DNA from: Pelagibacteraceae bacterium
GTDB taxonomy: Bacteria; Pseudomonadota; Alphaproteobacteria; HIMB59; GCA-002718135
Length of the DNA: 64,000 nucleotides
Assembly (NCBI GenBank): GCA_002718135.1
Contig: PBDN01000002.1
Coordinates: forward strand, 23,678-87,677
Direction of reading: 5' to 3'
Positions 51,167 to 64,000 of the stretch are shown piece by piece. A program made the position numbers and the translations under genes. A model generated the notes under the pieces. It did no database searches. It was not told the origin of the DNA and saw only the letters and a list, made by a program, of their open reading frames with translations. Each line of letters starts with the position of its first letter. The first letter of the stretch is position 1.

Positions 51167-51928
51167 TTACTTCCGAGATACCAAAGGGTACATATCAAAA
51201 TTTTGTTCATCAAAAAACTTCAAACGATTAGGTATTGTATTTAGAATTATTTCGTTATTTTCTTTTGATATTCTGTCTAAACGATAACGCACAGCTATCC
51301 ATGTCAAAATACTCTCAGCCACGTCTTCTCTACGAGGAAATTCTTTGGCATAATCGGAAATATGTTCTTTGTCTTTTCTTTTTGCTTTTTGCCATTGTGT
51401 TTTACTTAGTAATCCTCCAAAATCCCAATCTAAAGACGTATGACCTGCTTCATGGATAAACACTTCTTCAAGAATTCCTTTAGAAATATATTCTTTACTT
51501 CTACCAGTGTGAATCAATAAATTTTCATTACCGCCACCATAGTTTTTTTTTCCTTTATGGATCCATACAGTTTTTACATTGGTTAGTAAAAAATTTGGCA
51601 ATCTTCCAATCACTTCAGAGTAGTAAAACGCTTCCTTAAATGCATTATCAACATTTTTAAATTCAGGATTTACCTGTATTTCAATTATTCTTTCCTCGTA
51701 TACTGCATTAAACAAAAATGCTTCTTTATTTAACCATCTACCACCTCTTCTTCGATCAAACATTTCGCGATAATCTTTACCAATATAAATTAGTTCCTTA
51801 AATGTTGTTGGATCATTAGAATTAATTACATCTGGAAAGTACCAAATGGTTCCATCGTATGGTGGTTTAGCATATACATTCATAAAAGAATAAAAAACTA
51901 AGAAAAGTAAAATTAAGATAAATTTCAT
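51167..51928 (-). CDS. Exported HExxH protein (putative zinc metallopeptidase)
   Basis: A signal peptide (MKFILILLFLVFYSFMNVYA) precedes a 233-aa mature protein with His159-Glu-x-x-His163 in EVFIHEAGHTSLDWDF, the zincin metal motif. A third ligand could be Asp168 or another residue further on. The text before it (LPNFLLTNVKTVWIHKGKKNYGGGNENLLIHT) reads as beta strands ahead of the active-site helix. The role is unknown. Its start overlaps the stop of the PseI-like gene by 4 nt, which ties it to the sugar cluster. Confidence 0.6.
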   Translation of the reverse strand: MKFILILLFLVFYSFMNVYAKPPYDGTIWYFPDVINSNDPTTFKELIYIGKDYREMFDRRRGGRWLNKEAFLFNAVYEERIIEIQVNPEFKNVDNAFKEAFYYSEVIGRLPNFLLTNVKTVWIHKGKKNYGGGNENLLIHTGRSKEYISKGILEEVFIHEAGHTSLDWDFGGLLSKTQWQKAKRKDKEHISDYAKEFPRREDVAESILTWIAVRYRLDRISKENNEIILNTIPNRLKFFDEQNFDMYPLVSRK

Positions 51929-52974
51929 AACTTAATCATTTTGAAATTAAGAGGTGTACCTTTTTTTTGTTTAGATTGAAATTTTTTACCTATCACCTGT
52001 TTATAAAATTTTGGGTGAAGACCATTATTCGGTCTAATGATTTTAATATTATTTTTATTTATTTTATCATTTTTATTTACATCCTTTGAAATAAATATTG
52101 AACGTTTAAACATTAATGAATTTTTTTCATTTTTTGAAATTAATTGACTTTTTTTACCTATAGCAACATATGCAGATTTTATTGAATCAGTATATTTTTT
52201 AAAATCATTAATATTCAATGAAAATTTGCTATCTAAAGTTTTAACTTTATTGTTTAATTTAACATGTTTCTCAAAAATTCTCACACCCAAACCAATAGAT
52301 GTAATTGCAGCTATATTTTCAAGTGTATGATCAGATAAACCTATTGCACATTTATATTTTTCTTTCAAAAACGTTATTGTACTTAAATTCGCATCAGATA
52401 ATTTGGCTGGGTAATTACTTGTGCATTTTAATAAGCAAAAATTATTATTATTATTTTTTTTAAATATCTTAACTAATTCATCAAGATCATCGTATTCTGC
52501 TAAACCCGTTGAGATAATTACAGGTTTATTTGTTTGAGCCACTTTTTCAATTAAAGGAAAATGATTATTTTCAAAGGATGCAATTTTGTATGCAGGAACA
52601 TTTAGTTTTTCAAGAAATTCAAATGATAGATCATCAAATACAGAACTAAAACAAATGATTCCATTTTTTTTTGCACGGTTAAAAATTTTTTCGTGCCAAT
52701 CTAGAGGGGTTTTTGCTTCTTCATACAAATCTATTAAATATTTACCATTCCAAAGGCTATTTTTATCATTTATTTTAAAATATTTATTTTTAATATTTAA
52801 GGTAATTTCATTAGGTATAAAAGTTTGAATTTTAATTGCATCGGCTCCATTTTTTGCAACTTGATCAATTATTTTTAAAGCACGTTGAAGTGATTGTTTA
52901 TGATTAGATGACATTTCAGCTATAAAAAAAGGTTTAGTATTTGAATTTTTGAATTTCTGTAAATTAAACTTCAT
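51925..52974 (-). CDS. pseI: Pseudaminic acid synthase (PseI/NeuB family)
   Basis: Condenses an altrose-type 6-deoxy sugar with PEP to give pseudaminic acid. The TIM-barrel text follows the PseI subgroup: FFIAEMSSNHKQSLQRALKI, DAIKIQTFIPNEITLNIKN, SLWNGKYLIDLYEEAKTPLDWHE, FSSVFDDLSFEFLEKLNVPAYKIASFE, VIISTGLAEYDDL, CTSNYPAKLSDANL, IGLSDHTLEN, FEKHVKL and DSKFSLN. A C-terminal SAF (antifreeze-like) domain ends the 349 aa. Its start overlaps the PseH-like gene by 11 nt. Confidence 0.85.
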   Translation of the reverse strand: MKFNLQKFKNSNTKPFFIAEMSSNHKQSLQRALKIIDQVAKNGADAIKIQTFIPNEITLNIKNKYFKINDKNSLWNGKYLIDLYEEAKTPLDWHEKIFNRAKKNGIICFSSVFDDLSFEFLEKLNVPAYKIASFENNHFPLIEKVAQTNKPVIISTGLAEYDDLDELVKIFKKNNNNNFCLLKCTSNYPAKLSDANLSTITFLKEKYKCAIGLSDHTLENIAAITSIGLGVRIFEKHVKLNNKVKTLDSKFSLNINDFKKYTDSIKSAYVAIGKKSQLISKNEKNSLMFKRSIFISKDVNKNDKINKNNIKIIRPNNGLHPKFYKQVIGKKFQSKQKKGTPLNFKMIKL

Positions 52975-53485
52975 TTGATTTGTAAATAAATTTTATAAGT
53001 TTATTATTTTTTTCATTAATTACTTGCTTAAATCCACATTTTAACAAAACTTTTTTTGAGACTTGATTATTCTCCATCACTTCTGCAACTATTGGCTTTG
53101 TAAAATTCTTAAAATTATCTTCTAAAGACATATTTATCATAATACTAGAAAAATTTTTACCACGATAATTTTTTTCTATTAAATAATTCAATTTGAAATA
53201 ATCTCCACAATCATCATATCTAATTAAACCAATTTTTTTATTTAAAATAAAAAAAAATTTAAAATAATCATTTTTGCTATTAACTTTTTTTCTTAACCAA
53301 TTTTTATGAGTTTCAATAGATATTTTTTTTTTATTGATAGAGTTTTCTCTAGTTGTTGTATCATTTATCCAATTAAATATAATTAAATAATCTTTAAATT
53401 TTACTTTTTTTAAAGAAAATTTCTTTTCAGAATTATTTCTTTGAGAGTGAGTTGAGTAATTTTGAGATATTTTTGTCTTTTTCAT
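52964..53485 (-). CDS. PseH-like N-acetyltransferase (GNAT)
   Basis: A 173-aa GNAT that fits UDP-4-amino-sugar N-acetyltransferase PseH: IFNWINDTTTRENSINKKKISIETHKNWLRKKV (the W-N, R, H-x-x-W pattern), FILNKKIGLIRYDD, LNYLIEKNYRGKNFSSIMI for acetyl-CoA and VAEVMENNQVSKKVLLKCGFKQV. It overlaps the PseI-like gene and, at its 5' end, the upstream 68-aa gene by 53 nt. Adjacent PseI and nearby PseC make a role in pseudaminic acid synthesis likely. Confidence 0.75.
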   Translation of the reverse strand: MKKTKISQNYSTHSQRNNSEKKFSLKKVKFKDYLIIFNWINDTTTRENSINKKKISIETHKNWLRKKVNSKNDYFKFFFILNKKIGLIRYDDCGDYFKLNYLIEKNYRGKNFSSIMINMSLEDNFKNFTKPIVAEVMENNQVSKKVLLKCGFKQVINEKNNKLIKFIYKSNEV

Positions 53486-53639
53486 TAATATTTCTTAAAA
53501 TTAATTTAGTTTCTCTAGGTGAATGTTTCATTGCTATCCTAAGTATATCCATCCAATTAATATTATTTTTTGATCGTATTTTTTCTATTTTATCTATTAC
53601 ATTTAATTCATTATTTAGATTTAATTTTTTTTTATTCAT
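53433..53639 (-). CDS. Small conserved-looking protein (68 aa) upstream of PseH
   Basis: Helical, soluble: MNKKKLNLNNELNVIDKIEK, then IRSKNNINWMDILRIAMKHS and PRETKLILRNINEKDKNISK. The IRSKNNxNWMDxLRxAxKHxP stretch has the balanced look of a real gene, and I recall similar small proteins in marine surface-sugar clusters, though the name is not known to me. It overlaps the PseH-like gene by 53 nt in another frame. Role unknown; an accessory or regulator of the sugar pathway is a guess. Confidence 0.6.
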   Translation of the reverse strand: MNKKKLNLNNELNVIDKIEKIRSKNNINWMDILRIAMKHSPRETKLILRNINEKDKNISKLLNSLSKK

Positions 53640-53654
53640 ATTTATCTTCTCCGC

Positions 53655-53811
53655 TTATTCACAATTGTAAATATTACCATTATCAACAAAATTACATTCT
53701 GTAATATCAACTGGATAAGAATTTGAAAGATATATGTTTTTTTTTATTTTTCCAACTTAAAGTTGTTCCTAAATAAAAATAGTAGTATCTATAAATTTTT
53801 CTTCCATGTCC
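53655..53811 (-). pseudogene. Frameshifted gene remnant
   Basis: Reading leftwards, an open frame gives GHGRKIYRYYYFYLGTTLSW, then KNKKK, and runs into a nine-base A tract. Shifting frame there continues IYLSNSYPVDITECNFVDNG, NIYNCE and a stop. The balanced, Cys/Pro-containing second part looks like a true protein end. It lies directly upstream of the 68-aa gene. The family is not recognised; it could also be random open frame. Confidence 0.3.
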
Positions 53812-53982
53812 TTAGTTGTAGCTTATTTTATAAACAATTACACTGCATTTGTTTTTTAATGTTGATTAATTAAAATTAGTTTATCTAGATAAAAATTGAT
53901 TTTGGATATATGCAAAATTTAAATTTTAAATTTTGATTTTTTATTCTTCTGCATCTTGTTCTAGCTGGAATATTTAGAATAT
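53812..53982. other. Noncoding spacer between PseH and PseC blocks
   Basis: Together with the remnant above this forms a 343-nt gap between the 68-aa gene and the aminotransferase. It is AT-rich, with no start codon giving a believable product and no clear hairpin terminator. Confidence 0.4.
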
Positions 53983-55149
53983 TTATATTCTATTTAAAAA
54001 ATATTTTTTAATTTCAAATGAAACATACTCAATTTGTTTATTTGTTATTTCATAAAAATTAGGAATTGAAAATGCAGACTTATAAAATTTTTCACAATTT
54101 TTATAATTTTTTTTATTAAATTTAAATTTATTTTTAAAGTATGTAAATTTATATAATGGGACATAATGAACTTGTAGTTTAATATTTTTTTTCAACATAT
54201 ATTCAAAAAAATGTTTTTTTGAAATTTTATATTTTTCAAAGTCAAATTTTAAAACATAAAGATGATACGAATGTTTATAATTATGCTTTTCAACTGGTAA
54301 ATCAAAAAAATCTAGATCTTTAAATAATTTATTATATTTTTTCGCAACAAGTCTTCTTTTGTTAATAGTTTGTTTTAATTTATTCAATTGAGATATTCCC
54401 AAAGCAGCATTTATTTCTGATAATCTATAATTATATCCAATTGATTTAATGTCATAATACCATGAACCATTGCTTTTTTGAGCTTTATAATCTCTTACTA
54501 TTCCATGAGAGCGAGCTTTTTTTAAAAATTCATAATATTTTTTATTATTTGTTAAAATACTCCCACCTTCTCCAGTAGTAAAAGCTTTTACAGGATGATA
54601 ACTGTGAACCACCATATCAGAATATTTTACTGCATAGCCTATATTCCTATTTATTGTAGATCCAATAGAATGACAATTGTCATTTACTAATTTAAATTTA
54701 TATTTTTTCTTTAAATTGTTTAATTCTTGCCAATAACAAGGATGTCCTCCATAGTCGGTAGCAACCACAGCACTTATATTTATTCCTTTTTTTTTATTTC
54801 TTTTTATTTCTTTTTCTAATTTATAAACATCAATATTATTTGTTTCAGGATCTATATCAATTAAATTGATTTTTGCTTTTGAGTAAATTGCAGCATTTGC
54901 AGTTGCTACGAAAGTATTAGCTGATAATAGAATTAAATCATCTTTATTCCATCCTAAAGCCATTCCAGATAAATGCAACCCTGCAGTTCCAGAGCTTACT
55001 GCAATACAATAATTTGATTTAAAAAATTTACATAATTTTTTTTCAAATTTTTCAATAAGAGGCCCTTGAGTTATAAAATCTTTATCAAGACTTCTTTTTA
55101 CGTAATCTACATCACTTTTATCTATGAATTGTTTTGAATAACTAATCAC
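53983..55149 (-). CDS. pseC: PseC-like UDP-4-keto-sugar aminotransferase
   Basis: PLP aminotransferase of the DegT/DnrJ/EryC1/StrS family, 388 aa, closest in text to PseC, which aminates C4 of the altrose intermediate. Family text: FITQGPLIEKFEKKLCKFF, AVSSGTAGLHLSGMALGW, SANTFVATANAAIYSKAKINLIDID, VNDNCHSIGST and VVHSYHPVKAFTTGEGGSI with the Schiff-base Lys in HPVK. It is 343 nt from the PseH block on the same strand. The matching dehydratase PseB and hydrolase PseG are not in the window. Confidence 0.85.
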   Translation of the reverse strand: MISYSKQFIDKSDVDYVKRSLDKDFITQGPLIEKFEKKLCKFFKSNYCIAVSSGTAGLHLSGMALGWNKDDLILLSANTFVATANAAIYSKAKINLIDIDPETNNIDVYKLEKEIKRNKKKGINISAVVATDYGGHPCYWQELNNLKKKYKFKLVNDNCHSIGSTINRNIGYAVKYSDMVVHSYHPVKAFTTGEGGSILTNNKKYYEFLKKARSHGIVRDYKAQKSNGSWYYDIKSIGYNYRLSEINAALGISQLNKLKQTINKRRLVAKKYNKLFKDLDFFDLPVEKHNYKHSYHLYVLKFDFEKYKISKKHFFEYMLKKNIKLQVHYVPLYKFTYFKNKFKFNKKNYKNCEKFYKSAFSIPNFYEITNKQIEYVSFEIKKYFLNRI

Positions 55150-55176
55150 TTACAAATTTTCTACAATCCTTTTAAT

Positions 55177-55296
55177 TTAAGCTTCATCTAAAATCATTCC
55201 ACTAACAAAATCACATATTTGATCAGCTATAAATCCTTCAACTAGTTTATCACGATTTATTGTTAATACGTAGCCTAAATACCACTGAAAAAACAT
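55177..55296 (-). CDS. Possible small protein (39 aa)
   Basis: A short frame of unusually balanced composition: MFFQWYLGYVLTINRDKLVE, then GFIADQICDFVSGMILDEA and TAA, 27 nt before the PseC-like start. It reads like the C-terminal part of a longer helical protein, so it may be a remnant. Not recognised. Confidence 0.35.
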   Translation of the reverse strand: MFFQWYLGYVLTINRDKLVEGFIADQICDFVSGMILDEA

Positions 55297-55629
55297 ATCA
55301 AATTATAAATATAAATTCAGTAAGCGGTAAATAAATACCACTATTTACAATAATTTTTCAATGAATTTCTTAAGAATATTAGCAAAAACTTTATCAAAAT
55401 AATCTTGAAACATATACCACTATTCCCCCAAAGGTTAAGAGGGTTATTTTTAGGTTAACATATGGGTTTAATGGGGATGGGGGTAATAAAAAACATTTAT
55501 TCATAATTGGGACCCAATACAAATCTAAATTAATATTTTAAAAAAACTTGTCACACTGGTGTCACATTGAAAATATTTATAACACAATTTATAAGTAAAA
55601 CTTAAAAGACAAAAGAGAGGGTTTGTAGA
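55297..55629. other. Noncoding stretch beside the partial tRNA copy
   Basis: Contains TACCACT three times in or beside it (about 55280-55425), GT-rich text around 55435-55490 that includes runs of G and a direct repeat TGTCACA-CTGG-TGTCACA near 55550. No convincing ORF. Its base composition differs from the coding neighbours, as expected for decayed mobile-element DNA. Confidence 0.4.
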
Positions 55630-55685
55630 AAAATTTGGAGCGGGCGAAGGGATTCGAACCCTCGACTTCAACCTTGGCAAGGTTG
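55630..55685 (-). repeat. Partial tRNA-Gly copy: 56-bp direct repeat (att-like site)
   Basis: Identical base for base to 56484-56539. It covers the tRNA-Gly(GCC) 3' half from the anticodon stem through CCA plus seven flanking bases (AAAATTT). The 5' half of the tRNA is missing here (sequence diverges to TTTAGTACC), so it cannot make a tRNA. This is the signature left by integration at a tRNA 3' end. Confidence 0.85.
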
Positions 55686-55827
55686 TTTAGTACCAATAGC
55701 GTAAAAATACATTAAGTATTACGCGGATTTTAAAATTAGAAAATTGATTTTTTGAGTCTCAAATGAATCTCTAGTGAATCCAATTATTTTCTTAATTTTG
55801 ACGACTTCGATAGATACTATTTAATAC

Positions 55828-55929
55828 ATGACAATTTATGAAATTGCTTTTGCTTATCTTCTTATAATTCTTTTTAAAAGACTAAAACAATTCATAATAT
55901 ACTTAAAAAAGAAATACCTATTAAATTAA
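55828..55929 (+). CDS. Tiny membrane-peptide ORF A (33 aa)
   Basis: MTIYEIAFAYLLIILFKRLK and a basic tail QFIIYLKKKYLLN. One hydrophobic helix then Lys/Arg-rich end. Lies inside the 56-bp repeat interval. Similar in plan to the next ORF. Translation unproven. Confidence 0.3.
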   Translation: MTIYEIAFAYLLIILFKRLKQFIIYLKKKYLLN

Positions 55930-55937
55930 TTATATTT

Positions 55938-56045
55938 ATGATTACCGAAATTTTAATATTTTACTTATTACCAATGTATTTTGTAGTTTTGATTTTAAAG
56001 AATATAAGAAGAATTATAGTTAAGATAAAAAATAAATACTTTTAA
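55938..56045 (+). CDS. Tiny membrane-peptide ORF B (35 aa)
   Basis: MITEILIFYLLPMYFVVLIL followed by KNIRRIIVKIKNKYF. One helix plus basic tail, beginning 8 nt after ORF A. The plan resembles small hydrophobic peptides of type I toxin systems, but no antisense RNA or other support is visible. Confidence 0.3.
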   Translation: MITEILIFYLLPMYFVVLILKNIRRIIVKIKNKYF

Positions 56046-56073
56046 TTTTAGTTAAATTTGTTATTCTAAATAT

Positions 56074-56247
56074 ATGTTATCAAATATGTTTTGGAATATA
56101 CTTGGAGTTGCAATAGTTATTGGCTTTGTAATATTTAGTGGCCTTGATTGGTATTGGGCGCTTCCTATAGGTATTGTAGTTGCTCTTTTGGTTGTGTTTT
56201 TTGGTGGTTATTTACTTGGAAAGAGTGGTCGCTCTTCTAGATTTTAA
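56074..56247 (+). CDS. Small two-helix membrane protein (57 aa)
   Basis: MLSNMFWNILGVAIVIGFVI, FSGLDWYWALPIGIVVALLV, VFFGGYLLGKSGRSSRF. Two hydrophobic helices separated by the polar turn SGLDWYW and a basic end. Trp, Gly and Pro content is unlike chance AT-rich text, and codons are GC-richer than the neighbours. Located in the repeat-bounded interval. Not recognised. Confidence 0.6.
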   Translation: MLSNMFWNILGVAIVIGFVIFSGLDWYWALPIGIVVALLVVFFGGYLLGKSGRSSRF

Positions 56248-56390
56248 TTTCTAAATACAAAGAGAGAGAAAAACGCTAAAAAATAAAATAAAAAACCGAT
56301 GATTTTAAAATCATTATTGATAAAGCCAAATCCAATACTTCCAAAAATTAGAAGTAAACAAATTCTATAAAACCAACGGTTAATATTCAT
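56244..56390 (-). CDS. Small two-helix membrane protein (48 aa)
   Basis: MNINRWFYRICLLLIFGSIG, FGFINNDFKIIGFLFYFLAF, FSLFVFRN. Two hydrophobic stretches and a charged turn. Converges on the 57-aa protein with a 4-nt 3' overlap. Unrecognised; plausible but could be chance. Confidence 0.4.
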   Translation of the reverse strand: MNINRWFYRICLLLIFGSIGFGFINNDFKIIGFLFYFLAFFSLFVFRN

Positions 56391-56483
56391 AAAAATTAAT
56401 TAATTAAGATTATACTAACACCAACGAAGCGATTATTAAATATGAAGTGCAACTATATTACAACTAAAAGAGGTAAGGGGGTT

Positions 56484-56539
56484 AAAATTTGGAGCGGGCG
56501 AAGGGATTCGAACCCTCGACTTCAACCTTGGCAAGGTTG
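56484..56539 (-). repeat. 56-bp direct repeat within the intact tRNA-Gly
   Basis: Second copy of the repeat at 55630-55685, here as part of the complete tRNA gene. The two copies start 854 bp apart and enclose 798 bp. Confidence 0.85.
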
Positions 56540-56564
56540 CGCTCTACCCCTGAGCTACGCCCGC
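56490..56564 (-). tRNA. tRNA-Gly (anticodon GCC)
   Basis: Read on the minus strand the cloverleaf is complete: acceptor GCGGGCG / CGCCCGC, D-arm GCTC-AGGGGTAGA-GC, anticodon stem CAACC / GGTTG with loop TTGCCAA (anticodon GCC), T-arm GAGGG-TTCGAAT-CCCTT, discriminator T and encoded CCA. It is the only tRNA in the window. Confidence 0.97.
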
Positions 56565-56636
56565 ATTTGTGCTATAATTAATAAATCTTTAAACCTTTAA
56601 GTCAATAACTACAAAATAAATATATAAAATTGACTT

Positions 56637-57209
56637 TTAGATTCTTTTTTTTATAAATTTAGCAGGGTTGCCTCCCCATATTTCAAATGATGGTATACTT
56701 TTTGTAACAATAGATCCTGCTGCAATAACTGATCCATCACCGATATTAACTCCTTTTAAAATAGTTGAACCCACACCTATCCAACAATCACTTCCAATAT
56801 TTATATCATCTACTATCGATTGTTGGTTTAATATTATATTATTTTTGTCTTTATTATGGTCTTGATCATAAATATTACAATTAGGAGCTATCAAAGTATA
56901 GTTACCTATTGATATATTACCTTTGGCAGAAATAATAGATCCTCTACCTATTGAAACATGGTTGCCTATTTTTAAGTTTGGCTTTGGTTTAGTTAACAAA
57001 ATTAATGAATATGATTCAATAACAACATAATCACCAATACTAATTTTAGAATTATCTGTTAATCTAAATTCAACTTTTTTTTCAATATTAATATTGTTGC
57101 CGTATTTAATTCCATGATAATTACAAATAATTTTTGATCTTAAGTTTTTTAAAAAAGTAAAGCTTGATGAACTGGCTTTATCCTTAAATTTATAACGAGT
57201 AACTTCCAT
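56637..57209 (-). CDS. Hexapeptide-repeat acyltransferase
   Basis: Left-handed beta-helix acyltransferase of 190 aa, with repeats such as IGDYVVIESYSLIL, IGNHVSIGRGSIISAKGNISIGNYTLIAPNC and the catalytic-type His in DQDHNKDKNNI. The ending SDCWIGVGSTILKGVNIGDGSVIAAGSIVTKSIPSFEIWGGNPAKFIKK is that of O-acetyltransferases acting on sugars. Substrate is unknown but probably a surface polysaccharide. It is the first gene beyond the tRNA on that side. Confidence 0.85.
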   Translation of the reverse strand: MEVTRYKFKDKASSSSFTFLKNLRSKIICNYHGIKYGNNINIEKKVEFRLTDNSKISIGDYVVIESYSLILLTKPKPNLKIGNHVSIGRGSIISAKGNISIGNYTLIAPNCNIYDQDHNKDKNNIILNQQSIVDDINIGSDCWIGVGSTILKGVNIGDGSVIAAGSIVTKSIPSFEIWGGNPAKFIKKRI

Positions 57210-57318
57210 AGTTTGATTAAAATAATATATACTAGTGATACTATAACAAAAAATTGATTTAACTTAATAAAATATTTAAATAAGAATGAATATTCTTTAA
57301 ATTTGGGAAATTACCAAT

Positions 57319-58953
57319 TTATTTTAGTTTTACAATTTTATTATATTTTATTTCTAAATCTTTTTTTCCAGAAACTAAATCAATGCCCCCAAGAGCTGGA
57401 TCATCTTTTGCTATCAATTTTAATGGATCATAAAAAAAAGTTTTTACTAAATAATCTTTAGCAATCAAAGAAGTTGAAGTGAAAGGCATTGAAATAACGA
57501 TGTCGCTATTTTTAATTATTTGAAAAGGCGATATCTTATTATCAACTATTTGAAAATTTTTTCTTTGATCAATATTTTTAATTAAATTAAAGTATCTTTT
57601 ATCAGTATATAAATGTTTTCTTTTTGTTTTAAAAATAATATTAAATTGATTGCCGCTAAATATATTTACAATATCATTTAAGAAATATTTTGACAATTCA
57701 TAGGTATAATACTCATAATCCATACCTAACGAGCAAAAAACAAACCTTCTAAGAGGTTGCACATCAAATACGCTAATATTAATTTTTTTTGTAAATTTTG
57801 AAAATGATATGGTGTGGAAATCAGACCACCAAATAGGTCCTGTTATTTCCTTGGTATGTAAATTATTCTTGTCATATTTTTCTATCGTTGTTTTTTGATT
57901 TTTGTCCCAAAGAAGATAATGAGGCCAACTGATGAGATGCCAACGATCAGAATTCTTATACTTAGATTTAGATCTACTGTCCCTATAATGTAAAATATTA
58001 GTTGAATAAAAAAATAAAATTATTTTAATATTTTTTTTAGAGGTATCTAGGTGGGTCCATATCGGTCTATAAAACCAGTTAATGTTGGAAAAAAGAATTT
58101 TCTTTGGTAGATTGTTCTCATTTTTAATATTTATAATTTTTCTTCTTAAACCTTCACTTAACATAAAAGGACTCCACCAATGACCTCTTAATAACTCATA
58201 AAAAGAATATAAAATTATTTTGATTCCATAAATTAAAAAAGACCAAAATTGATAGAAGTTATTAAGTTGAAATAAGTATTTTTCGTACGAACCTATAATC
58301 TTTACTTTTCCTAAATTTTTTTCAACTATATTTAAGTTATGATAGATCGTATCTAATTTTTCTTTTTTATAATAGTTAATTAACCAATTAAAAAAATTAT
58401 AATTTGATTTATTTATTGAATTAATAGGTTCTAAAGTAATATTTGCTAAAACAATCGAGTGATTTGTACAAATATTTTTTTTAAATAAAAAAGAAAACAA
58501 TATCTTAAAATAATAAAGTATTCCCTTAAAATAAAAAAAAGTTAAAATTAAATACCAAATAGACAAGCTTAAAACATAATTCACTTTAATGTTTTGTTTT
58601 GACAGCTTGTTTAAAAATTCAGCCGGCATTGGATAAAATATTTTTTTATTTTTTTTACTGTAAAAATTTAACAAAGCTTGATTAAAAGCTATTTTGCCAA
58701 AAATACTAGAAACGAATTGCTTTATAGAAAGTTCGGGATTATCTATATCATAAAATATTGGATGGTTTTTTTTTATATTTGCAGAAAGTTTTGTTTCAAC
58801 AAATACAATATTTTTAATATCATTTATTAAGAAAAATTTATTTTTTTTTTTTAAATAGGAAGATCCTTTCAATATAGATCTGGCAAAACTTTTATTATGA
58901 TTAATTAAGTTAAAAATAGCATTGGAAAAAGGGTTAAAATTAAAGCCAAACAC
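57319..58953 (-). CDS. Polysaccharide-biosynthesis PFTS-motif-type protein
   Basis: A 544-aa protein with a membrane-associated stretch (about 132-166) and a GT-B-like C-terminal half. The phrase DIVISMPFTSTSLIAKDYLVKTFFYDP carries the PFTS motif of a family found in surface-sugar clusters of marine bacteria. It lies in the donor-site region, and reads SGNQFNIIFKTKRKHLYTDKRYF before it. Enzymatic role is not established; a glycosyl- or glycerol-phosphate-type transferase is possible. Divergent from the second NeuB gene. Confidence 0.65.
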   Translation of the reverse strand: MFGFNFNPFSNAIFNLINHNKSFARSILKGSSYLKKKNKFFLINDIKNIVFVETKLSANIKKNHPIFYDIDNPELSIKQFVSSIFGKIAFNQALLNFYSKKNKKIFYPMPAEFLNKLSKQNIKVNYVLSLSIWYLILTFFYFKGILYYFKILFSFLFKKNICTNHSIVLANITLEPINSINKSNYNFFNWLINYYKKEKLDTIYHNLNIVEKNLGKVKIIGSYEKYLFQLNNFYQFWSFLIYGIKIILYSFYELLRGHWWSPFMLSEGLRRKIINIKNENNLPKKILFSNINWFYRPIWTHLDTSKKNIKIILFFYSTNILHYRDSRSKSKYKNSDRWHLISWPHYLLWDKNQKTTIEKYDKNNLHTKEITGPIWWSDFHTISFSKFTKKINISVFDVQPLRRFVFCSLGMDYEYYTYELSKYFLNDIVNIFSGNQFNIIFKTKRKHLYTDKRYFNLIKNIDQRKNFQIVDNKISPFQIIKNSDIVISMPFTSTSLIAKDYLVKTFFYDPLKLIAKDDPALGGIDLVSGKKDLEIKYNKIVKLK

Positions 58954-59135
58954 AAAAACCGTTTATTTTTTATTATTTTATAAAATATATTTGTGAATAA
59001 TATTAATTAATTAGTAACTTAATAGCAAATGAATATTTTAAGACAGCCAATGTTTAAAAACATAAGAAGAAAAAATGATTTAAATCCTTTGATTTCTTGA
59101 ATTTTATTGATAATAAAATCTTCCTTAAAAAATAT

Positions 59136-60206
59136 ATGAATGAACAATCAATTAAAATTGGAGGTACTTCAATTTCAAGTAAATCAAATACATATTTTAT
59201 AGCTGACATTGCTGCAAACTGGGATGGTAGTTTGGACAGAGCTAAAAAATTGATAGAGTTATGTGCCAAAGCAGGTGCAAATGCTGCAAAATTCCAAAAT
59301 TTTAAAGCATCAACAATTGTAAGCAAATATGGATTTGATAATTTGGGTAATGTAGCGCATCAAGCAAAATGGAAAAAGTCAGTTTATGAAGTTTATAAAG
59401 ATGCTTCTTTACCAATTGAATGGACCAAAGAATTAAAAGAGGTGTGTGCTGAATCAGGAATTGATTATTTTACTACACCTTATGATATTGATGATGTGGA
59501 TATATTATCAAAATATGTTGCTGCATGGAAAATTGGCTCTGGAGATATAACATGGCATGAGTTAGTTGAAAAATTGTCTAAAGATAATAAGCCATTAATT
59601 ATAGCAACAGGAGCATCTAACTTCAATGAGGTAGAAATGGCAATGCAAATAGCTAAAAAAAACAACAACAATGTTGTTTTGATGCAATGTAATACAAACT
59701 ACACAGGCAGTATAGATAATTTCAAATATATAAATTTAAATGTTTTAAATTTATATAAACAAAAATTTCCTAATACTATTCTGGGCTTATCTGATCATAC
59801 TCCTGGGGATACTACTGTACTTGGTGCAGTAGCATTAGGGGCAAAAGTTATTGAAAAACATTTTACTGATGACAATAACAGGGAAGGCCCTGATCATCAA
59901 TTTTCTATGACTCCATCAACTTGGAAAAATATGGTTTTAAAAACAAGAGAATTAGAATTAGCATTAGGATATGAAAATAAAAAAATTGAAGAAAATGAAA
60001 AAGAATCGGTAATAGTTCAAAGAAGAGCAATAAGAGCATTTAAGGATTTAAGCAAAGATCATGTTATATCATATGATGATCTTATTGTGCTAAGGCCAAT
60101 TTCTGAGAAAGGTTTGGCTCCTTATAAAATACAAGATGTAATTGGAAAAAAGGTAAAAAAAAATATAGTTGAGGGAGAAGAAATAAATTTTGAAAACATT
60201 GAATAG
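59136..60206 (+). CDS. NeuB-family nonulosonic acid synthase (second copy)
   Basis: A PEP-dependent sugar-acid synthase with TIM barrel and C-terminal SAF domain, 356 aa from this ATG. Text: YFIADIAANWDGSLDRAKKLIELCAKAGANAAKFQNF, YFTTPYDIDDVDILSKYVAAWKIGSGDI, LIIATGASNFNEV, MQCNTNYTG, LGLSDHTPGDTTVLGAVALGAKVIEKHFTDDNNREGPDHQFSM, QRRAIRAFKDLSKDHVISYDDLIVLRP. The lack of the PseI text and the EKHFTDD phrase place it apart from both other NeuB copies. An earlier TTG frame start is possible, but the ATG fits better. Product sugar not determined. Confidence 0.85.
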   Translation: MNEQSIKIGGTSISSKSNTYFIADIAANWDGSLDRAKKLIELCAKAGANAAKFQNFKASTIVSKYGFDNLGNVAHQAKWKKSVYEVYKDASLPIEWTKELKEVCAESGIDYFTTPYDIDDVDILSKYVAAWKIGSGDITWHELVEKLSKDNKPLIIATGASNFNEVEMAMQIAKKNNNNVVLMQCNTNYTGSIDNFKYINLNVLNLYKQKFPNTILGLSDHTPGDTTVLGAVALGAKVIEKHFTDDNNREGPDHQFSMTPSTWKNMVLKTRELELALGYENKKIEENEKESVIVQRRAIRAFKDLSKDHVISYDDLIVLRPISEKGLAPYKIQDVIGKKVKKNIVEGEEINFENIE

Positions 60207-60909
60207 TATTCCTCATATTTCTATAATTATCACATCATATAATTACGAAAGTTTTATATGTGATGCAGTTGATTCCTGTTTCGTTTCTGGACAAAATTTA
60301 AAAAAGGAAATAATAGTAATTGATGATGGTAGTACGGATAAAACTTTAGATAAGCTTAAAAAATATAAAGATAAAATAAAGGTTATAGAGAAAAAAAACG
60401 AAGGTTTAGAAAAAGCAGTGAATCTTGGTATTACAAACTCTAATGGCTTATATTGGGTAAGACTAGATGCCGATGATTACTTTACAGATAACTATTTTGA
60501 AATTGTTTCTGAATATTTACACTTAGATTATAGTTTTTATTATGGTGATCATTTTTTAGTTGATAAAAATAAAAATTATTTGAAAACGATTGTTATGCCT
60601 GATTGTGATGTTCAAACAATAAGATCAATGGGTGACTTTTTACCAGGTGCAGTAATGTACAAAAAAGATATAGTTAACATAATTGGCTTATACAATGAAA
60701 AATTTAAAAATAGTGGATATGAAAATTATGATTATATTTTAAGAATAATTGAAAAAAATTATAAAGGATTAAAAATTAATAAACCATTATTGAATTATAG
60801 AATGCATAATAATAACATGTCTAAAAATAGAAATGTAAATAATAGATTTATTGATCATTTAGTTGATAGATTTAATTTAGATAAAAATATTTTTTATAAA
60901 AAATTTTAA
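60190..60909 (+). CDS. Family 2 glycosyltransferase
   Basis: GT-A inverting glycosyltransferase, 239 aa. ISIIITSYNYESFICDAVDSCFVSG, EIIVIDDGSTDKTLDKL, ITNSNGLYWVRLDADDYFTDNYF with the DxD (RLDADD) and LLNYRMHNNNMSKN are classical. The start is a TTG that overlaps the NeuB 3' end by 17 nt and has the purine-rich GAGGGAGAAG ahead of it. Likely transfers the sugar made by the neighbouring synthase; acceptor unknown. Confidence 0.85.
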   Translation: MKTLNSIPHISIIITSYNYESFICDAVDSCFVSGQNLKKEIIVIDDGSTDKTLDKLKKYKDKIKVIEKKNEGLEKAVNLGITNSNGLYWVRLDADDYFTDNYFEIVSEYLHLDYSFYYGDHFLVDKNKNYLKTIVMPDCDVQTIRSMGDFLPGAVMYKKDIVNIIGLYNEKFKNSGYENYDYILRIIEKNYKGLKINKPLLNYRMHNNNMSKNRNVNNRFIDHLVDRFNLDKNIFYKKF

Positions 60910-61655
60910 ATGTACATTGTTGTTATCCCATCAGATACATATTTGTTCACTAAATTTTTTATTTCATTATTATGATCCAAATAATCAATAATTAAATTTA
61001 CAGGAATATTTGGACTCAATTTTTTAAATTTTTCATAAACACTTCTTAACAAAACAAGATCCTCTGGATAATCAGCAGTTAAACGAATATCTTCTCTTTG
61101 TAATTTATTTTCTGTACTGACAAAGTTTATTTTAAAATCTTTTTTGTTTTCTCTTATGTAAAGAGTGCATAATTCTGATCTGTGTTTTGCCGATCCATTG
61201 TTCCATGATTTTTCTAAAGAGTTTAAATTTATTATTTCAAAACCACTTCCATTTGGAACGTTATCTATTGTAGATAAATCAAAATTTTTTTCTCTATGAT
61301 TAAGCCAAACATTATCGATATACTCGTATAAACAAAATGGGGATTCAGATGTTACCCTAAACACATCTGTTCCATTAACGTGTTTACAGCATTTTATTAG
61401 CCTAAATAAAACATCTTTTTCGTCTCCACTTATTGAAGAAATATTGTGTTTTTTTGCTATTGAGTGATAGACATCATTTTCAGCACCCTCTGCAACACCT
61501 AATACAATCTCATCTATTGATTTAGATTTTTTTAAATAAGAAATTATGTAATCAAGAATTGAAATATTATTTTTTATATCTAAGTTTTGAAGAGGCTTGC
61601 CATACAATCTTGAACCACTGTTCCGACAGGCTAAACAAGCTATTAATTTTTTCAA
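60906..61655 (-). CDS. Cytidylyltransferase (SpsF/NeuA-like)
   Basis: A sugar-nucleotidyltransferase of the SpsF/CMP-sugar group, 249 aa. The nucleotide loop is ACLACRNSGSRLYGKPLQNL; SGDEKDVLFRLIKCC and VFRVTSESPFC mark the CTP-site strand. RLTADYPEDLVLLRSVYEKF is the usual end. It should activate a nonulosonic acid as its CMP derivative. It overlaps the GT2 gene by 4 nt at its 3' end and the third NeuB gene by 4 nt at its 5' end. Confidence 0.82.
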   Translation of the reverse strand: MKKLIACLACRNSGSRLYGKPLQNLDIKNNISILDYIISYLKKSKSIDEIVLGVAEGAENDVYHSIAKKHNISSISGDEKDVLFRLIKCCKHVNGTDVFRVTSESPFCLYEYIDNVWLNHREKNFDLSTIDNVPNGSGFEIINLNSLEKSWNNGSAKHRSELCTLYIRENKKDFKINFVSTENKLQREDIRLTADYPEDLVLLRSVYEKFKKLSPNIPVNLIIDYLDHNNEIKNLVNKYVSDGITTMYI

Positions 61656-62656
61656 TTTAAGTCCTTTGTTAAAATAGGTAAACCTTTCTTTATACTTTTA
61701 TTCAAAGTCTTACCAAAAACCATATCTGGATTAAAAATTACATGCTTTAATGACATTACTTTAGTTCTTTTGAAATTAATATGTTGTTTATTTATAATTG
61801 TTTTTCTTGATAAATTCTTTTTAGCCAATATAATTTTACTTGATTTGTTTACATATTCTGTTTCTTTTTTTGAAACATTTAGACTTTTAACACCTAAAGA
61901 TTTCTCCATATTTCTAATTGATTTAACAAAATTAGTAAACTCACCTACATCTAAAGCAGAAATATAATCTTCTATTTTTAATTCTCTATCTAACGTAAGA
62001 TGTTTTTCAATAGCATCAGCCCCAGCACCAATAGCAACCAATGGTAATAATTTAGAGGCATCAGAGTTACCCAAAGAGTGATCCATAAAACCTACATTTG
62101 TATTTGGGTATTTTTCTTTGTATTCATTAATTTTTAACAAATTGTTGTCTTTCAATAAAGTTGGCTCTGATTGTATTCCATGTAAAATTGTTACATTGTT
62201 TTTATAAATATTTAAACTTAGTAATTTATCAATATCTTCAATCTTTCTTCCAGAAACAGATATTAATATATTCTTAAAATTTTTAAAAGATTCTTTGATT
62301 AATGAATAGTTAAAAAAATCTGCAGTAGATATTTTTACTCCATCAGCACCTATTTGTTTTGCAATTTTAAAACTTTTTGGACCATAAATATCAAAAAAAA
62401 TTTTTTTGTTATGTTTATGTGTTGTTTTTACTAAATTTAACCATACGGCTGTGCTCATTTCTAAACTTTTAAATAATTTGTAGTGTTCATATAAGTTAGT
62501 GCATAACTCATCAGCAAAAACTAGTTGAAATTTCACAATGTCTGCATTGGTTTTTAAAAAAGCATCTAATAAAAGATTTGCTAAGTACGGATTGCCTTCA
62601 AAGCCCTGAGCAATTTCTGCAATAATTTGAACTTTTTTTTTGTTTTTATTTTTCAT
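61652..62656 (-). CDS. NeuB-family nonulosonic acid synthase (third copy)
   Basis: Sugar-acid synthase of 334 aa. VQIIAEIAQGFEGNPYLANLLLDAFLKTNADIVKFQLVF, IFFDIYGPKSFKIAKQIGADGVKIST, ILISVSGRKIEDIDK, GFMDHSLGNSDASKLLPLVAIGAGADAIEKHLTLDR and a C-terminal SAF domain (IILAKKNLSRKTIINKQHINFKR) are present. The barrel text differs clearly from the other two copies, reading ISVSGR where they read STG. It is 4 nt overlapping with the cytidylyltransferase and 58 nt from the class III aminotransferase. Product sugar unknown. Confidence 0.82.
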   Translation of the reverse strand: MKNKNKKKVQIIAEIAQGFEGNPYLANLLLDAFLKTNADIVKFQLVFADELCTNLYEHYKLFKSLEMSTAVWLNLVKTTHKHNKKIFFDIYGPKSFKIAKQIGADGVKISTADFFNYSLIKESFKNFKNILISVSGRKIEDIDKLLSLNIYKNNVTILHGIQSEPTLLKDNNLLKINEYKEKYPNTNVGFMDHSLGNSDASKLLPLVAIGAGADAIEKHLTLDRELKIEDYISALDVGEFTNFVKSIRNMEKSLGVKSLNVSKKETEYVNKSSKIILAKKNLSRKTIINKQHINFKRTKVMSLKHVIFNPDMVFGKTLNKSIKKGLPILTKDLN

Positions 62657-62714: not shown

Positions 62715-64000
62715 TTAATTAAATCTTTTAAATCCCGCCTGGCAAACAGGGACTTCTAATATTTTATTAACATCTCTCCCCTCTTCACATTCCTTTATTT
62801 TTTTGAAAATTAAATTTAAATTTTCTATATATTCATCTACTAACTTTTTTGTATGACCTATAGATACAAAAATCATATTTGATGCAAGATAGCCTTCTTT
62901 TAGCATTTCTTGAGCTATCAGTGTTTTGTATTCTAAATTTTTTTTAGAAATAAAATTTATACTTGGTATTGCGTCAATTCCTTCAATTACTACTTCTAAT
63001 TCATTTTTATCAGCAATATTTTTCCATTGATCTTTAATGTACCTTCCAGTACTGGAAATTATTTCCCATGATTTAATTCTTTTCATAACCTCTAATGATT
63101 TAAGAGCCGCTACAGATCCAAGTCTTTCTGTCCAAAATGTACTACTTATAAATGTTTGTTCTGCGCAAGACATTATATCTTTTTTTCCAACAACTGCAGT
63201 AATTGGGTAGCCGTTACCAAGTGCTTTACCAAACATAACCATATCTGGTTCTACATCACAGACTTTATATAAACCTCCTAATGTTTGCCTAAATCCAGAT
63301 GTGCATTCATCAAAAATAAGTATAATATTATGTTTATTACAAATTTTTCTTATATTTTTTAGAAAAGTAATATCAATCTTCTTTGTTCTAGCAACTTCCA
63401 TTTTTATAATACCAATAGATTTGTTAATAATAAGATTTTCCAATTCATCTATGAATCCATACTTGAATGTAAAAATTGTTTCTGAGAGATTTTTAGGCAC
63501 ACCATTCGATTTAAGTCCTGACATCAAGTGACCATCTAAATTATTTGAACTTGAAATATTAGCTGCGATATACCAATCATGCCAGCCATGATAACCACAT
63601 ACAGCAATATTAGTTTTATTCGTAGCGGCCCTCGCAATTCTAACTGCAATAGAATTTGCCTCTCCTCCTGTTCGAGCAAATCTTACCATATGTGACCAAT
63701 TATTAATTTCTATTAATTCATTTGCTAAATCTACTTCTTCATATGAATTTAAAGTAGAAATATTTCCTAAGGATATTGTCTTTTTAACTTCATCATCTAT
63801 TTCTTCATTTGAATATCCTAAAATGTTTGTGCCAACAGCAAAAAGAAAGTCTTTGTATCTATTATCATTTAGGTCCCAAATATTAATATCTTTAGATTTT
63901 TTAAAATAAGTAGGCCATCTATCTGGCAGCCAAAGTTCCGCTTTTTTTGAAAACAGCATTGATCCACCAGGTATAATTTTTTTCGCTTTAGACCAAAGTT
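62715..64000 (-). CDS. Class III aminotransferase (5' end beyond the window)
   Basis: PLP enzyme of the glutamate-1-semialdehyde aminomutase type. WDLNDNRYKDFLFAVGTNILGYSNEEIDDEV, RFARTGGEANSIAVRIARAAT, CGYHGWHDW, LIFDECTSGFR and VMFGKALGNGYPITAVVGKK with the PLP Lys of GKALG are clear. An internal ATG at 63959 is not the true start: upstream codons continue in frame (LWSKAKKIIPGGS) to the edge with the family's usual IPGG phrase. So the gene is truncated by the window. Probably aminates a sugar intermediate for the adjacent NeuB. Confidence 0.85.
   Translation of the reverse strand, partial: LWSKAKKIIPGGSMLFSKKAELWLPDRWPTYFKKSKDINIWDLNDNRYKDFLFAVGTNILGYSNEEIDDEVKKTISLGNISTLNSYEEVDLANELIEINNWSHMVRFARTGGEANSIAVRIARAATNKTNIAVCGYHGWHDWYIAANISSSNNLDGHLMSGLKSNGVPKNLSETIFTFKYGFIDELENLIINKSIGIIKMEVARTKKIDITFLKNIRKICNKHNIILIFDECTSGFRQTLGGLYKVCDVEPDMVMFGKALGNGYPITAVVGKKDIMSCAEQTFISSTFWTERLGSVAALKSLEVMKRIKSWEIISSTGRYIKDQWKNIADKNELEVVIEGIDAIPSINFISKKNLEYKTLIAQEMLKEGYLASNMIFVSIGHTKKLVDEYIENLNLIFKKIKECEEGRDVNKILEVPVCQAGFKRFN

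Follow-up and report, generated by a model that had tools for sequence, protein, structure and literature searches.

Genes with a NeuB domain are commonly annotated as sialic-acid-type synthases. The described enzymes closest to the locus considered here are PseI (NCBIfam model TIGR03586; Campylobacter jejuni PseI, PDB 8h2c) as well as the NeuB/SpsE-type synthases (NmNeuB, PDB 1xuu; BsSpsE, PDB 1vli). According to the accessible part of PMC7371886, the residue after a pocket Ser is Phe in enzymes of the pseudaminic acid (Pse) type and Gly in those of the Neu and Leg type. With regard to activation, the accessible text of PMC7439481 describes SpsF of Bacillus subtilis as a putative cytidylyltransferase without which legionaminic acid is not transferred onto the surface of the forespore, and in a Vibrio Pse cluster an SpsF-like domain fused to an aldo-keto reductase is proposed to replace NeuA (PMC7371886, same part). 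Finally, SfmA is a NeuB-domain protein required for flagellin modification in Shewanella oneidensis, i.e., in a nonulosonic acid (NulO)-based system said to be without clear PseI and PseF orthologues (PMC3765264, accessible part). Here, we compare these systems with a stretch of 64,000 nucleotides from a Pelagibacteraceae bacterium (assembly GCA_002718135.1, contig PBDN01000002.1, positions 23,678 to 87,677; called the window, always at its full length), and in particular with its three NeuB-family genes Syn1, Syn2 and Syn3 and the cytidylyltransferase gene CTP3 that adjoins Syn3.

A previous interpretation made from the letters alone (the sequence-only reading) had taken all three genes for NulO synthases. 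For Syn3 this is not supported, since it lacks most of the side chains around phosphoenolpyruvate (PEP) while retaining the fold, the metal ligands and two lysines. We thus lean towards two canonical NulO synthases and one retooled paralogue. That is, we assign a probability of roughly 0.6 to Syn3 being a retooled auxiliary enzyme of NulO activation or tailoring and not a third ordinary synthase. The Syn3 clade occurs in many bacteria of several phyla, where it travels with the sugar-activating enzyme CTP3.

Syn3 and the canonical synthases

The open reading frames (ORFs) of Syn1 (51925..52974, minus strand), Syn2 (59136..60206, plus strand) and Syn3 (61652..62656, minus strand) are complete and score above the cut-off of the Pfam NeuB model (PF03102, 22.1 bits) with 247.9, 243.7 and 113.0 bits, respectively, such that the three intact NeuB-family genes of the sequence-only reading stand. 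Its assumption of three distinct lineages was likewise borne out by a midpoint-rooted FastTree phylogeny of 210 sequences (four solved references, no LegI reference), in which the genes fall into three separate clades and not into one recent clade. A recent triplication of a NeuB gene is thereby ruled out. Syn3 shares 25% identity with Syn1 and 25% with Syn2, and its clade (56 sequences, support 1.0) contains none of the four references.

PEP is surrounded by positions 110, 129, 131, 132, 182 and 184, as far as the accessible part of PMC7371886 tells. We compared alignment columns (NmNeuB numbering) of the Syn3 clade with those of the other 154 tree sequences. Position 110 is S/T in 151/154 sequences outside the clade and D/E in 55/56 inside; position 132 is S in 154/154 outside and in only 25/56 inside. 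At position 182, C (152/154) is replaced by G (56/56), and at position 184, S/T (144/154) by Q (56/56). Tyr at 186, found in 154/154 sequences outside, gives way to E (32), Y (12), F (11) or D (1), and Ser at 213 (again 154/154) to A/M/L in 53/56. On the other hand, E25, K129, H215, H236 and D247 are kept in all 56 members, K53 and Q55 in 55/56, and R314 in 53/56. For the window, this means that Syn1 and Syn2 show the PEP-region residues at 110 (S/T), 132 (S), 182 (C), 186 (Y) and 213 (S), while Syn3 has D, T, G, E and M, i.e., an altered pocket with D89, G160, Q162, E164 and M191. His215, His236, Glu25 and Lys129 are present in both Syn1 and Syn3, and Syn2 has Asp at 25; in the NeuB family, the two histidines are metal-binding and Glu25 and Lys129 catalytic. 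A misalignment at position 110 is unlikely because, in a separate alignment, the stretch from there to the conserved Lys129 is of equal length in Syn3 and Syn1.

The AlphaFold model of Syn3 (pLDDT 90.7) has its best Foldseek matches in NeuB and PseI (TM score 0.82-0.84), followed by DAHP and KDO8P synthases, and a relation to a different fold is thus rejected. Judged by its sequence, Syn3 represents a distinct NeuB-fold family whose donor (PEP) pocket appears rebuilt, with fold, metal site, sugar side and two lysines retained. Conserved as these residues are in loci of several phyla, a new or shifted function seems likelier than decay. Among the papers listed by our open-access literature searches, none was seen to describe a Syn3-type family. 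A precedent, by analogy, for a NeuB paralogue in NulO-based modification is SfmA, which we liken to Syn3 by description only and which differs, in the accessible part of PMC3765264, in its length of 290 residues and its neighbours (a thiamine pyrophosphate enzyme, a methyltransferase and an ATP-grasp protein).

Syn1 is, by its sequence features, of the PseI (pseudaminic acid synthase) type. It reaches 417.3 bits with the equivalog model TIGR03586 (cut-off 340.25), in contrast to Syn2 (248.0) and Syn3 (95.0), and clusters with C. jejuni PseI in a clade of 35 sequences (support 1.0). Its diagnostic site holds Phe (KIASFE), as in 29/35 sequences of that clade, while Syn2 has Gly and Syn3 Ala. None of the three reaches the cut-off of the NeuB/NnaB model TIGR03569 (399.65), with scores of 249.0 for Syn1, 276.7 for Syn2 and 134.9 for Syn3. 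Syn2, for which a TTG at 59097 is an alternative start, is best classified as a canonical NeuB-family synthase of another clade with the Gly of the Neu/Leg type. It shares positions 132, 186 and 213 (including the pocket serines 132 and 213) as well as the metal ligands with NeuB/SpsE-type synthases; it differs by forming a clade of its own (12 sequences, support 1.0) that adjoins the PseI clade (0.908), and by Asp for Glu25 and Ala for Ser154.

The Syn3-CTP3 pair and its probable part in CMP activation

A scan of genome contigs yielded 65 loci, and 35 of them (L001-L033, L056, L064; three via identical sequence) matched the Syn3 clade. The other 30 hold distant NeuB genes and were left out; with locus L066 from a contig listed as viral, 36 Syn3 loci result. 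Neighbours were named from clusters of relatives and from reading representative sequences. In 34/36 loci, CTP3 directly follows Syn3 in the same orientation, at a distance of at most 48 bases. One further locus (L029), counted as the 35th, has a CTP3 that is cut or broken near the contig end, and in L007 CTP3 lies 2.1 kb from Syn3 on the opposite strand. In the window, the two frames overlap by 4 bases. Both genes even share one open frame in four genomes of the order Pelagibacterales (L106, L108, L109, L111), where we name the order of the Pelagibacteraceae relative after the label of L020 (397 genomes sampled). In L008, it is CTP3 and the class III aminotransferase AT3 that form one frame. 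Syn3 and CTP3 are thus an almost invariable gene pair and sometimes a single protein.

The further surroundings vary. A class III aminotransferase is found within the available DNA of 27/36 Syn3 loci (L008 included). The window's AT3 is 49-56% identical to those beside Syn3 in L003, L020, L022 and L025, and 21-31% to the others. Directly upstream of Syn3, an aldo-keto reductase is encoded in 17 and a MocA-type enzyme in 4 of 39 Syn3 frames (300-400 residues, from 45 loci, two genomes being counted twice). For the Pelagibacterales order, we inspected 12 Syn3 regions (L003 and L020 included). In 11 of them, Syn3 has a CTP3-like gene or domain as its neighbour, several of these being only 28-36% identical to known CTP3, and in seven a radical SAM (S-adenosylmethionine) gene is adjacent to Syn3 (four upstream, three downstream). 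A typical order, as in L056, is PseB, PseC, aldo-keto reductase, Syn3, CTP3, AT3, PseG, canonical synthase and GNAT acetyltransferase. In Kiloniella laminariae, locus L015 combines genes for a Syn2-type synthase, Syn3, CTP3 and AT3. A Syn3 97% identical to that of the window was found on another contig.

Some of the collected loci show further arrangements of NeuB genes. On the contig of L066 (IMG/VR, 102,655 bases, listed as viral), Syn3 and CTP3 occur along with two more NeuB-like genes and a stretch resembling PseF. In L108, L109 and L111, the genes for the canonical synthase and for the fused Syn3-CTP3 protein are separated by one for a protein of 343-351 residues (cluster c33), perhaps an oxidoreductase. 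Read from its sequence, L183:6988-9429 is a canonical NeuB fused behind a domain resembling an FAD-dependent oxidoreductase, and the Pelagibacterales-order sample contains other NeuB frames of 790-820 residues.

CTP3 (60906..61655, minus strand) is an SpsF-type cytidylyltransferase by its CTP_transf_3 match (PF02348, 51.6 bits against a cut-off of 22.6) and by R11, R16 and K20, which are conserved in 35/35 aligned sequences and presumably form the N-terminal nucleotide-binding motif. The PseF model is absent from its NCBIfam matches. CTP3 is of the same cytidylyltransferase kind as in the SpsF systems and often stands in clusters without a classical PseF; it differs by its pairing with Syn3 and AT3, and the accessible parts of PMC7439481 and PMC7371886 mention no such pair.

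We also assessed which other NulO genes accompany Syn3. A further NeuB of more than 190 bits is present in 32 of 34 Syn3 genomes (without L011 and L066). An incomplete genome may account for the two exceptions: L014 comes from a contig of 3.4 kb in a metagenome-assembled genome (MAG), and L028 from a MAG contig with only 1.9 kb left beyond Syn3. With regard to PseF, only one of 33 Syn3 genomes (without L014, L066 and L011) exceeds the cut-off of the single model applied (TIGR03584). Matches of at least 77 bits occur in 13/33 (that one included), only partial matches below 65 bits in 8/33, and none at an E-value of 1e-10 in 12/33. That is, no full-length match to this PseF model was found in 20/33 Syn3 genomes, for which CTP3 would be, as far as one model tells, the best candidate for making CMP-NulO (CMP, cytidine monophosphate). 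The sequence-only reading had offered an activation shared through one cytidylyltransferase, and the count makes this part plausible; the composite glycan carrying several nonulosonic acids that it named beside it is possible.

Proposed role of Syn3 and alternatives

In our proposal, CTP3 would make CMP-NulO for the canonical synthases and is probably the CMP activator that the cluster shares, which agrees with SpsF of B. subtilis and the SpsF-like domain of Vibrio. Less surely, Syn3 would act next to this activation step, in concert with AT3 and with a redox partner that varies between loci, namely an aldo-keto reductase, a MocA-type or a radical SAM enzyme. The metal site of Syn3 might bind a sugar or finished NulO, which Syn3 would alter before CMP transfer, e.g., through a metal-bound aldehyde or keto intermediate of the NulO or its precursor, or else condense with a donor other than PEP before that transfer. 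Further steps would fall to AT3 and the redox enzyme. A bolder version, which we put forward tentatively and regard as somewhat doubtful, is that Syn3 founds a non-PEP activity of the NeuB superfamily, i.e., a metal-dependent one on NulO or its precursor before CMP transfer, and that redox enzyme, Syn3, SpsF-type enzyme and class III aminotransferase form an exchangeable module of NulO pathways across phyla, giving an undescribed NulO class. If the Syn3 clade does not consist of synthases, NulO pathways have been overcounted, given that several Syn3 relatives carry synthase names, and a widespread step of tailoring or activation has gone unnoticed. The Syn3-CTP3 pair would further mark the enzyme for CMP activation in those Pse-type clusters where none is apparent.

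Several points weigh against this proposal. To our knowledge, no activity is established for any member of the Syn3 clade. The loci were collected by searching for Syn3, such that the frequencies hold for this sample only, and many of the Syn3 genomes are MAGs or otherwise incomplete. L195 (genome G167), the sole exception among the 12 Pelagibacterales-order regions, has a PseF-like protein instead of CTP3 beside its Syn3 and Phe at position 110. By their sequence matches, CTP3 is not always a substitute for PseF, because L021 has CTP3 plus a true PseF and 12 further Syn3 genomes have NeuA-like matches of 77-142 bits. PseB, PseG and the aldo-keto reductase of the Syn3-cluster group were not found in the window by tblastn. 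Furthermore, Syn3 may run a PEP reaction with changed contacts, two lysines being retained, and known synthases, too, show less conservation at positions 132, 182 and 184 (PMC7371886, accessible part).

An alternative is that Syn3 works as a genuine PEP-dependent synthase and makes an unusual 3-deoxy-ulosonic acid, its altered pocket reflecting a different acceptor or PEP orientation. CTP3 and AT3 would then activate and aminate the product of Syn3, and the cell would make three ulosonic acids in total, as in the sequence-only reading. Such an enzyme would fit the retained E25, K53, K129, D247, R314 and both metal histidines, the tight Syn3-CTP3-AT3 unit with its two kinds of fusion, and the separate PseF that L021 has for its Pse. 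We nevertheless consider it unlikely, as the loss of hydroxyl contacts near PEP and the acidic residue at 110 are nearly clade-wide and Syn3 rarely occurs without another NeuB. The lost PEP contacts, together with the near-constant pairing and natural fusion with CTP3, would also suit a NeuB-fold subunit of little or no catalytic activity, which aids CTP3 in NulO binding or release. A mere scaffold, however, would not need the metal ligands and the catalytic Glu, Lys and Asp that are conserved across phyla, which makes this explanation improbable.

We give a similarly small chance to the clusters being remnants of swapped surface-glycan islands in which one or more of the three genes are unused. 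Here, the evidence comes from the window itself: PseB, PseG and a classical PseF were not found in it (tblastn, E-value 1e-4, relatives from 45 loci), the Syn1 part is separated from the Syn2/Syn3 part by an att-like tRNA-Gly scar, and no close CTP3 is seen in 162 genomes of the window's nearest order (best match 32% identical). But none of the three frames is broken, their active-site residues are conserved, the 97% identical Syn3 exists on another contig, and the missing genes may be located outside the window.

Gene region and NeuB genes in small marine genomes

NulO genes within a variable surface-glycan cluster, as in this region, are an ordinary setting, and it is the Syn3 family that makes the region interesting. 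The genes form two units. Unit A (minus strand) consists of Syn1, a GNAT acetyltransferase (52964..53485) whose frame overlaps the Syn1 start by 11 bases, and a PseC-like DegT aminotransferase (53983..55149; PF01041). The latter stays narrowly below the PseC cut-off (TIGR03588, 401.8 vs. 423.5 bits), while the GNAT protein (PF13302, 39.9 bits) is only weakly PseH-like (TIGR03585, 26.6 vs. 93.1 bits).

Unit B extends from a hexapeptide-repeat acetyltransferase (56637..57209, minus strand; PF00132) to AT3. It continues with a PFTS polysaccharide biosynthesis protein (57319..58953, minus strand; TIGR04417, 155 bits at a cut-off of 100), for which a 30% identical homologue is found within the Syn3 cluster of the Pelagibacteraceae locus L003. 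On the plus strand follow Syn2 and a family 2 glycosyltransferase (GT2; 60190..60909; PF00535, 87.3 bits) that overlaps the Syn2 end, and on the minus strand CTP3, Syn3 and AT3 (62715..63998), a GSA-aminomutase-like protein with a PF00202 score of 132.7 bits for 62715-63959 and its 5' end past the window. The neighbours listed by the sequence-only reading (PseC-like, weakly PseH-like, GT2, cytidylyltransferase, class III aminotransferase) are hence recovered by Pfam and NCBIfam, and its single cytidylyltransferase holds too, i.e., no second one was found in the window with the above tblastn search. As no close CTP3 was found in the window's own order (162 genomes), unit B looks acquired or strain-variable.

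A tRNA-Gly (gcc) gene (56490-56564, minus strand) is located between the units. Its 3' part together with 6 further bases recurs perfectly, over 56 bases, at a distance of 854 bases (repeat arms 55630-55685 and 56484-56564) with only small ORFs in between, which looks like an att-like integration scar. Two gaps of about 500 bases each (53486-53982 and 55150-55629) are without convincing genes.

The order nearest to the window is that of genome G557, whose aconitase is 70% identical to the window's, compared to at most 60% for the other listed genomes of a class sample of 240; within the family of G557 (110 genomes of 0.9-1.6 Mb), the best aconitase matches reach 71%, which places the host near this family. 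In this order, 94/162 genomes show a NeuB match, 90/162 above the Pfam cut-off (a few of these with only 22-32 bits), and in the Pelagibacterales-order sample NeuB genes are present in 295/397. We thereby reject a scarcity of NulO genes among small marine genomes, and with it the earlier remark that even one sialic-acid-like pathway is notable in a streamlined genome. By our own count of the list, 21 of these 295 genomes have three NeuB matches, and the two Pelagibacteraceae-labelled genomes of L003 and L020 carry three NeuB genes each. Three such genes in one small genome are thus uncommon, but not unique. A profile search (A2) matched 137/397 genomes; at the threshold applied, it does not separate Syn3 from canonical synthases, many of the loci fetched through it being canonical in the tree, and its count was not used. 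The main text of a paper on the Pelagibacterales O-chain (PMC11898729) contains none of the terms neuB, sialic, pseudaminic, nonulosonic, legionaminic or CMP. Genome G744, from the order of G557, holds nine NeuB matches in 1.3 Mb.

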